Shown one piece after another: positions 62,251 through 63,610 of a DNA stretch of 64,000 nucleotides. The notes under the pieces are model-generated. The model was not told where the DNA came from. It did not search any database and was given only the letters and a program-made list of their open reading frames with translations. The position numbers and the translations under genes are program-made. Numbering within the stretch: the first letter of the stretch is position 1; the number at the start of each line of letters is the position of its first letter. Origin of the DNA: an uncultured Lachnospiraceae bacterium (GTDB lineage: Bacteria; Bacillota; Clostridia; Lachnospirales; Lachnospiraceae); NCBI GenBank assembly GCA_902781655.1, contig CACZJZ010000012.1, positions 28,926 through 92,925 of the forward strand, given 5' to 3'.

Positions 62251-62658
62251 ATGAAAATATTAGTAATAGATGCTCAGGGCGGCGGGATCGGAAAACAAGT
62301 AGTCGCTGCAATTAAACGCGAACAGTCACACATAGAAATTACGGCAGTTGGAACAAACAGTACTGCCACAACAGCCATGCTGAAAGCAGGCGCTGATCAT
62401 GCTGCGACTGGAGAAAATGCAGTCGTTGTCGGATGCCGGACAGCCGATGTTATTATTGGACCTATTGGGATTGTCATTGCGGACGCAATGTTTGGAGAAG
62501 TGACTCCGACTATGGCGATAGCTGTTGGGCAAAGTAGAGCAAAACGGCTACTGATTCCTGTGAATCATTGCGATAATACCATTGTCGGAATCTCAGATCT
62601 GTCTGTAGGAAGCTTGATAGAAGAAGTTCTGAAAGAAATAAACAAAATGAGATTATAG
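62251..62658 (+). CDS. DUF3842-type protein
   Basis: A 135-residue cytosolic protein with a Rossmann-like start MKILVIDAQGGGIGKQVVAAI, then a TAVGTNSTATTAMLKAGADHAATGEN segment and GPIGIVIADAMFGEVTP. The pattern fits the small conserved DUF3842 family of Clostridia; the function is unknown, and nucleotide binding is inferred from the glycine-rich loop. TTGGAGGA precedes the start. From here on the DNA becomes visibly more AT-rich than the rest of the window. Confidence 0.85.
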   Translation: MKILVIDAQGGGIGKQVVAAIKREQSHIEITAVGTNSTATTAMLKAGADHAATGENAVVVGCRTADVIIGPIGIVIADAMFGEVTPTMAIAVGQSRAKRLLIPVNHCDNTIVGISDLSVGSLIEEVLKEINKMRL

Positions 62659-62668
62659 CCACAGGTAC

Positions 62669-62699
62669 TTGTTTTTTTGGGATTAGGCGGTGATATAAT
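62669..62699 (+). promoter_or_regulatory. Promoter of the two-gene membrane operon
   Basis: Extended -10 TG-A-TATAAT with the hexamer at 62694-62699. The best -35 is TTGTTT (62669-62674), 19 bases away. Transcription should begin near 62706, giving a leader of about 170 bases. Confidence 0.65.
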
Positions 62700-62750
62700 A
62701 TATATGCTTATGCAGGAAGCTGAGTAATGATGTCGAAGCATCTGATAGTA

Positions 62751-62839
62751 AAATAATCAAAGCAAACAACAGATGAAGATTATGTATACACAAGAAGGTA
62801 TACGGTTCCTCTGAAGAGGAGCGGTACGCCTTCTTTTTT
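62751..62839 (+). promoter_or_regulatory. Attenuator-like leader with competing hairpins
   Basis: The terminator arm 62793-62811 pairs with 62816-62834 (two mismatches, one or two G-U) around loop TGAA, followed by six T (62834-62839). Its left arm contains GTATAC (62798-62803), which can pair instead with GTATAC at 62784-62789, giving an alternative hairpin that would break the terminator. Upstream, ATAATC (62753-62758) can pair with GATTAT (62778-62783). Such mutually exclusive folds before a start codon are the pattern of riboswitch or attenuation control. The ligand is unknown and I match it to no known class. Confidence 0.6.
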
Positions 62840-62878
62840 GGCGTAAAAACATTTGCGAAATTTAGGAGGTACATAATT

Positions 62879-63292
62879 ATGGCATGTTTTCTTGTTCCGG
62901 CTGCGGAAGCTATTGTCACTACTGTCGCTGCAAAGGTGATCAAGTCCAAGGAAAAAGAAGAATCTGTTAAGCTCTCTCTTTCGGACGGCTCTGTTCAGGA
63001 AGCAACGAAAATTAAGTTTTCCACGAAGCTTGGCTGGCTGAACAAACTGCTCTGGGGTGGTTCTGTGCTTCTGGCGTTTGAGCACCTGTGGCACGGCGAA
63101 GTGGTTCCGTTTTTTCCGTTCCTGACAGCTGTTAAAAATGGTGAAACCGCTGAAATGTTGGCGGAAATGGGCAGCGCAGGCATCATGATGGCTGTATTTG
63201 TTACGGTCGTATGGGTCGGTATGCTTGCCGTTTCTTCTGTTGTGGAAAAGAGAGCGCTTCATGCTCCCAAGCTCACACAGGAGGGAGTGTAA
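62879..63292 (+). CDS. Conserved small membrane protein of unknown function (first of a pair)
   Basis: A 137-residue protein. It opens MACFLVPAAEAIVTTVAAKVI, a hydrophobic stretch, then a charged stretch of about 25 residues (KSKEKEESVKLSLSDG) and two further membrane segments (WLNKLLWGGSVLLAFEHLWHG and GIMMAVFVTVVWVGMLAVSSV). GEVVPFFPFLTA lies between them. The histidines in FEHLWHGE could bind a metal or act in transport, but that is inference. AGGAGG precedes the start. It ends 3 bases before the next gene, so they form an operon. I recognise the type as recurrent in gut Clostridia but know no function. Confidence 0.85.
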   Translation: MACFLVPAAEAIVTTVAAKVIKSKEKEESVKLSLSDGSVQEATKIKFSTKLGWLNKLLWGGSVLLAFEHLWHGEVVPFFPFLTAVKNGETAEMLAEMGSAGIMMAVFVTVVWVGMLAVSSVVEKRALHAPKLTQEGV

Positions 63293-63295
63293 AGT

Positions 63296-63610
63296 ATGAC
63301 TTTACTGACAACGGTTTTTGCAGCAATAATTGCTACGGTCATTTGGTATAAGGGCGCTCCGAAAAGTGAAATGAAAGTTGGTGCTCTTTGCTGGATGTAC
63401 TGGGGAGCATCCCTGATGTGGCTTGTTGATGCAATTTTTGAGTATGCAGAACTTGGCACTGAATACTTTACCCCTGCTCCTGTGGATATGCTCAACGATT
63501 TTTATCTTGGCCTGTCTGTTGTAGCCCATGGCCTGATCATCTGGCTGGTTATTCTGCTTGTGAAAGATCCGAAGGGCGTTGTAAAGGCAGCGTTGTTCAA
63601 GAAAAAGTAA
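63296..63610 (+). CDS. Conserved small membrane protein of unknown function (second of the pair)
   Basis: A 104-residue protein with three hydrophobic segments (LTTVFAAIIATVIWY, VGALCWMYWGASLMWLVDAIF and GLSVVAHGLIIWLVILLV). A short loop between the second and third holds EYAELGTEYFTPAPVD. The end is basic (KDPKGVVKAALFKKK), placing it inside. GGAGGGAG lies upstream. It very likely acts together with the preceding protein in the membrane. No terminator with a clear T-run follows; an imperfect 7-bp hairpin (GTCTTTT with GAAAAGAC, near 63632-63657) lies about 20 bases on. Confidence 0.83.
   Translation: MTLLTTVFAAIIATVIWYKGAPKSEMKVGALCWMYWGASLMWLVDAIFEYAELGTEYFTPAPVDMLNDFYLGLSVVAHGLIIWLVILLVKDPKGVVKAALFKKK

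Follow-up and report, generated by a model that had tools for sequence, protein, structure and literature searches.

The two small membrane-protein genes A and B of an uncultured Lachnospiraceae bacterium are preceded by a leader RNA that represents a new, well-supported family of attenuator RNAs, other members of which stand in front of genes for nickel-pincer nucleotide (NPN) synthesis and of candidate transport genes. We propose that this leader acts by transcription attenuation in a nickel/NPN regulon, under the control of a DUF3842 protein, and that A and B form a nickel importer; taken as a whole, we regard this explanation as evenly poised between right and wrong. In the window, by which we mean the whole stretch of 64,000 nucleotides that was analysed, a DUF3842 gene, an extended -10 promoter, the leader of about 170 nt and genes A and B all lie on the same strand:

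62251..62658, + strand: gene of a 135-aa DUF3842 protein (PF12953; 170.9 bits against a Pfam cut-off of 28.5), a candidate for acting in trans on the leader
62691..62699, + strand: extended -10 promoter element TGATATAAT, with a weak -35 (sequence)
62705..62726, + strand: hairpin P1, loop AGGAA at 62714-62718 (fold; covariation helix 1; RNAalifold)
62729..62742, + strand: hairpin P2, loop CGAA at 62734-62737 (covariation helix 2)
62784..62803, + strand: hairpin P3, the antiterminator, with arms GTATAC / GTATAC and a loop region containing C-AAGAA-G (covariation helix 3; truncated-transcript fold)
62805..62822, + strand: hairpin P4, loop TGAA, the upper part of the terminator and compatible with P3 (covariation helix 4)
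62794..62839, + strand: intrinsic terminator, arms 62794-62811 / 62816-62833, U tract of six T at 62834-62839 (sequence; fold -22.9 kcal/mol)
62864..62869, + strand: ribosome-binding site AGGAGG of gene A (sequence)
62879..63292, + strand: gene A, encoding a 137-aa predicted membrane protein (translation; homologue alignment)
63296..63610, + strand: gene B, encoding a 104-aa predicted membrane protein, the conserved partner of A (translation)

This layout agrees with the first-pass annotation of the stretch, which had described the promoter, the length of the leader, two membrane-protein genes three bases apart without known function, and a terminator sharing the sequence GTATAC with a mutually exclusive upstream hairpin. 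The two copies of GTATAC lie at 62784-62789 and 62798-62803, the second being part of the terminator 5′ arm; terminator and P3 have positions 62794-62803 in common, where the 5′ arm of the former is the 3′ arm of the latter. P1 and P2, which carry the same loop signature as P3 and P4, were absent from that annotation. Transcription would start near 62706; the consensus promoter scan omits the TGATATAAT promoter because of its poor -35 element. No promoter-like site lies between the terminator and gene A (sigma-70 scan, which covers that promoter type). The window reaches the end of the contig 390 nt past B, so that no more of the sequence after B is available.

Structure and covariation of the leader RNA

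The alignment of upstream regions, covariance model and Rfam comparison proposed in the first-pass annotation reveal covariation and no Rfam match. A module of two hairpins (an ANGAA loop, 19 nt, an NGAA loop) occurs twice per leader, as P1-P2 and then as P3-P4. Among 27 aligned leaders, the 19-nt spacing is found in 19 for P1-P2 and in 21 for P3-P4, the GAA of each loop is retained in at least 23, and P1 to P4 are all predicted by RNAalifold without imposed structure. Changes on both sides of the pair are seen in 18 of the 26 base pairs; none of 500 shuffles reaches the observed covariation, and the signal is abolished when the pairing partners are slid. These two-sided changes fall mostly in P1, P2 and P4, whereas in P3 two of the eight pairs change on both sides and six on one side only; the 3′ arm of this hairpin has to form terminator pairs as well. 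Both-sided changes reach 25 of the 26 pairs in a 74-row alignment fitted to the model, a kind of alignment that leans towards its model (L044, L058, L096 and L103 are left out of the model alignment, and L070 and L108 were not entered). The duplicated module is not universal, since P2 is absent by eye in several leaders of S-component genes. Outside the stems, conservation is mainly that of the loop GAA.

The covariance model, R1, was trained on the 27 A/B leaders, including the window copy, which as a training sequence scores 88.8 bits (E 1e-14) and is the single match in its genome. R1 matches occur in 19 of the 295 genomes of an order sample and in 36 of the 391 genomes (29 of 223 genera) of a class sample, with four genomes common to the order sample. 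With Rfam 15, the window contains no match at gathering score; at permissive settings, nothing relevant appears in the window at E up to 5 or at eight further leader loci at E up to 1.

This result sets the leader apart from two known RNAs. The NiCo riboswitch, a nickel-related RNA of Clostridia, folds into a four-way junction and has efflux genes as targets. The leader is made of separate hairpins, its targets are not efflux genes, and the lack of an Rfam match at the loci just named speaks against its being a NiCo riboswitch. The loops of the guanidine-II riboswitch are ACGR. In the excerpted text of PMC9481103, this RNA has two similar small hairpins, as the leader does, but the leader has other loop letters and other target genes and does not match the Rfam covariance model, so that this assignment was also rejected.

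The computed folds place termination first. The segment 62702-62880 folds with z = -3.56, and none of 200 shuffles is equally stable. In folds of the growing transcript, P1, P3 and P4 are present when the 3′ end is at 62822; when it is at 62833, 11 nt more and with the terminator 3′ arm included, the terminator wins, its energy comparing with -4.0 kcal/mol for P3 plus -8.7 kcal/mol for P4. Termination is the default fold and, because the terminator out-competes P3/P4, something must hold P3 for genes A and B to be transcribed.

Genes behind the leader and its DUF3842 neighbour

Targets could be read at 45 loci out of 53 distinct R1 matches, the other eight matches being without locus. At 43 of the 45, the target is A/B (9 loci), LarE with LarB (7), LarC (2), an ECF S-component (19) or a Nik/Fec-type ABC transporter, the last represented by a NikA/OppA-like binding protein (2), a FecB-like protein (2), a FecCD permease (1) and a NikB-like permease preceded by a methyltransferase (1). 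At the two exceptions, L131 (E 0.0056) and L138, no target could be recognised. A check by similarity bore out these target counts. LarB, LarC and LarE carry out NPN synthesis. Representatives pass the NCBIfam cut-offs for LarE (257.8 bits, cut-off 150) and LarB (286.6, cut-off 175), both at L121, and for LarC (217.1, cut-off 90, at L130); the remaining Lar targets were assigned by similarity, with E of 1e-88 or better for LarE/LarB and 7.7e-116 for L139. Two of the leader-bearing S-components exceed the PF12822 cut-off of 30.7 bits (72.7 and 67.7 bits) and the 17 others were assigned by similarity. The NikA/OppA-like and FecB-like targets pass no specific family cut-off, so nickel is their presumed cargo. 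Altogether, the regulon points to nickel and NPN, and these other targets, which are NPN or candidate transport genes, bear out the expectation of the first-pass annotation that the function of the A/B pair could be learnt from the leader.

The 19 genomes with a leader-controlled S-component encode LarA without LarC in ten cases, both in one, LarC only in two, a partial LarC in one and neither in five; the comparison of this 10 of 19 with 12 of 295 draws on different samples and is indicative only. LarB exceeds its cut-off in none of these ten genomes, eight of which are at least 91% complete, and 20 of the 21 LarA-without-LarC genomes tested for LarB have none over cut-off. A LarA that is active in a cell without LarB or LarC could use NPN only by import, and the leader-bearing S-component may thus be an NPN-salvage transporter. 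The argument concerns the leader-bearing subset; the S-component family as a whole is not tied to Lar genes, LarA and LarC both being absent from 16 of the 37 genomes in which an S-component is strongly matched (LarA at E below about 1e-7, 63 genomes). At loci with a strong S-component, R1 detects a leader in 5 of 30 at E up to 0.028. Genome G155 has adjacent genes for a LarA homologue, an S-component without a confirmed leader and a kinase-like protein. As a side observation, an ECF S-component with a kinase-like neighbour or one of about 320 aa (L142-L157, L125; L210) looks like NPN uptake in LarA bacteria lacking LarB/LarC.

That the leader stands over synthesis, possible salvage and metal supply makes NPN status a plausible signal, and we put NPN rather than Ni2+ in this role at just short of an even chance. 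The window's genome contains LarC but no LarB over cut-off; LarA is matched there only at E 7.9e-4, and an S-component not at all at 1e-20. The bacterium may therefore make no NPN; an NPN signal fits badly in this case and a nickel signal better. Elsewhere in the same genome, a lone LarC lies among glycosidase-like genes (L202, G000:C23:6000-16000), and cooS is followed by genes for a NikA/Opp-like binding protein and permeases (L203, G000:C21).

A gene of the DUF3842 family, searched with a purpose-built profile, is present upstream and on the same strand in 48 of 70 leaders with enough sequence, whatever the target, within 140 nt in 47 of them and 1.3 kb upstream at L153; in the flanking sequence searched, it was not found upstream of the other 22. 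This count stands apart from L108 (DUF3842 upstream), L129 (none), L131, the second match at L139, the duplicates L114-L117 and two leaders with under 700 nt upstream. Among 108 A loci with enough upstream sequence, 33 have a leader and 75 have none: 25 combine leader and DUF3842, eight have the leader only, none has DUF3842 only and 75 have neither, a difference (25/33 against 0/75) with P 6e-18 under an independence that related genomes do not have. L026 (no start found) and L038 (same locus as L002) are left out of these loci. A rescan of the leaderless set with R1 gave four matches at E below 1 in 78 loci (L056, L066, L011 and L091). The L056 match (E 0.003) resembles a degenerate leader, but the locus stays in the leaderless count; the match at L066 lies within LarB. 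As the leaderless A/B-Lar operons are without DUF3842 in the flanks seen, DUF3842 goes with the RNA and not with the pathway. Clustering of the proteins around A loci also ranks DUF3842 as the most frequent upstream family after the operon's own families.

DUF3842 is probably a nucleotide-binding protein of Rossmann-like fold, as suggested by its AlphaFold model (pLDDT 86), the structural matches of which are weak and generic (best UbiX, 3e-5, TM 0.47; NAD-binding domains). Its sequence profile has no relative in the PDB (best E 0.62). Twenty sequences all share G10-G12 and C107, and nearly all share H106, which gives a conserved His-Cys pair. No mention of DUF3842 was found in the literature searched. 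DUF3842 genes also lie near an S-component or LarE/LarB without a leader match seen at L182, L187 (R1-scanned) and L201, where a diverged leader may be present.

The first-pass annotation had proposed a riboswitch or attenuator. The attenuator part stands, on the competing hairpins, their conservation and the both-sided covariation; a riboswitch in the strict sense is not supported over a protein-dependent antiterminator, which fits at least as well given the adjacency of DUF3842, loops conserved little beyond N-GAA and default termination. A true riboswitch would bind NPN, a Lar intermediate or Ni2+, with the GAA-loop hairpins docking on the ligand and DUF3842 as a mere neighbour from the pathway. 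The Moco and AdoCbl riboswitches each use a single kind of leader for genes of cofactor synthesis, of salvage and of metal transport. The targets of the present leader span a similar range, with synthesis, possible salvage and transport together, and this regulon logic speaks for a riboswitch, as does the capacity of two similar small hairpins to make ligand pockets, described for guanidine-II in the same excerpt of PMC9481103. The leader is structurally unrelated to the Moco and AdoCbl RNAs, however, and a riboswitch has to contend with conservation that is mainly loop GAA outside the stems and with a DUF3842 gene that tracks the leader and not the A/B-Lar genes. Moreover, to judge from the folding, binding to P3-P4 would switch expression on, the wrong sign for product feedback. 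We consider a true riboswitch unlikely.

The A/B pair

The segment FEHLWHGE, noted in the first-pass annotation as conserved-looking, corresponds to residues 67-74 of A, and EHxWHGE is invariant in 11 aligned homologues, together with E10 and K19. Neither A nor B exceeds the cut-off of any family in Pfam, NCBIfam or PADLOC, known nickel transporter families of Pfam and NCBIfam included, and neither has a PDB relative at E below 1. When 18 A+B rows were scanned, the hits were weak, differed between homologues (cation efflux in five rows, PalH in four, others in fewer) and were disregarded, and the structure model of A with B (pLDDT 49) is unusable. Homologues of A are found in 53 of the 295 genomes of the order and in at least 534 confirmed stretches of the species collection, with B behind A in 75 of the best 80. 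Two short records from human faeces called Bacteriophage sp. (MT836268.1 and MT836358.1) also contain A homologues.

Of the 68 loci with at least 3.5 kb of sequence, 53 have LarB, LarC or LarE genes behind A (18 of 22 with a leader, 35 of 46 without); in the window's own group (the window, L033, L034, L035 and L133), the available sequence after A/B contains no Lar gene. In the order sample, LarC is present in 42 of the 53 A genomes (P 1.5e-5) and absent from 11 (E up to 0.001, at which 153 of 155 LarC are over cut-off), while A and strong LarA avoid each other, LarA being found in 1 of 53 A genomes against 60 of 242 (E below 1e-8, 61 genomes). In two genomes, cooS is directly upstream of A/B: on the Ruminococcus albus plasmid pRUMAL02 and in G158, with about 140 nt between the end of cooS and A. 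Both of these A/B copies are without the leader. CooS is over cut-off in 8 of the 53 A genomes, including the window's. G113 has no LarC; its A/B genes are the first of an operon that also encodes a hydrogenase maturation protease, HypF, HypD and HypE (L214, 6680-12723). NPN enzymes, CO dehydrogenase and NiFe hydrogenase are all nickel-dependent. Nickel is therefore the common denominator of the Lar, cooS and hyp genes found with A/B, and nickel supply is the simplest role; we consider it rather probable that A and B are a nickel importer.

Two further features of these loci were observed. The gene order three-gene ABC transporter, cooS, A, B is the same in pRUMAL02 (L032) and G158 (L204). By eye, a thioredoxin-like gene or the 4Fe-4S end of an oxidoreductase lies upstream in the leaderless A/B operons L051, L083, L090, L093, L105, L109, L080, L082, L085, L091 and L095.

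Instead of importing nickel, A and B could be an NPN-using membrane protein, the kind of non-LarA NPN protein that is expected according to the consulted portion of PMC11796402. Such a protein would account for the 41 of 42 LarC-containing A genomes without strong LarA and for the mutual avoidance of A and LarA, and the invariant Lys and His of A are compatible with it; the 11 A genomes without LarC and the association of A/B with cooS and with hyp genes argue against it, and it appears to us distinctly unlikely.

LarB, LarC and LarE are common to the operons described here and to the lar/NPN operons of Lactiplantibacillus plantarum. The L. plantarum lar system has separate nickel transport genes, a further point of resemblance. 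The present system differs from it by the leader RNA, DUF3842 and the A/B pair, and by the absence of strong LarA from 52 of the 53 A genomes.

Antitermination and the proposed mechanism

Among the known RNAs closest to the leader are the targets of ANTAR antiterminators such as EutV and NasR, which, in the accessible part of PMC3369931, are dual hairpins with hexanucleotide loops bearing A1 and G4, one hairpin excluding the terminator. The leader likewise has a pair of small hairpins whose loops contain conserved letters and of which one excludes an intrinsic terminator, but its loops are mostly NGAA or ANGAA, its module usually occurs twice and DUF3842 is a frequent neighbour. By this loop test, again with the ANTAR loops as given in that part of the article, the leader is not an ANTAR target, and by analogy it would work like an ANTAR-type dual-hairpin antiterminator.

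This analogy, in the form in which PMC3369931 presents it, also favours a trans-acting RNA-binding protein other than DUF3842, ANTAR-like or not, as the factor that binds the hairpins, and the 22 of 70 leaders with no DUF3842 found upstream would then be explained. We judge it quite improbable, in view of loops that are mostly NGAA or ANGAA where the ANTAR loops of that source are hexanucleotides with A1 and G4, and of the high rank of DUF3842 among the families upstream of A loci. That the leader is an ordinary 5′ untranslated region with a strong terminator and no regulation would agree with termination as the default fold, but is hardly credible for a P3 that is incompatible with the terminator while P1, P2 and P3 are conserved with compensating changes before unrelated targets.

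In the DUF3842-dependent mechanism that we propose, RNA polymerase would halt at the terminator by default. A factor recognising the two-hairpin module, in P1-P2 and again in P3-P4 over the terminator, would hold P3 and prevent the terminator, and A and B would then be transcribed. The factor would be the product of the adjacent upstream DUF3842 gene, whose hold on the RNA would tighten or loosen with the supply of NPN (or nickel), and A and B would together form a small nickel importer. For DUF3842 as the regulator of the leader, the chances seem to us equal either way. It is a further step, and in our opinion a somewhat unlikely one, that DUF3842 is the first of a new class of RNA-binding antiterminators that sense NPN and control the full NPN economy: LarB/C/E synthesis, nickel supply (A/B, ABC) and salvage by an ECF S-component with a nucleoside kinase in LarA bacteria without LarB/LarC.

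No RNA regulation or uptake of the nickel-pincer cofactor was found in the portions of the literature covered by our search. The leader RNA ties A, B, DUF3842 and an S-component without known substrate to nickel. It makes testable how bacteria sense NPN and which partners LarB, LarC and LarE have in genomes without LarA. If the salvage reading is true, it predicts cofactor sharing between bacteria.
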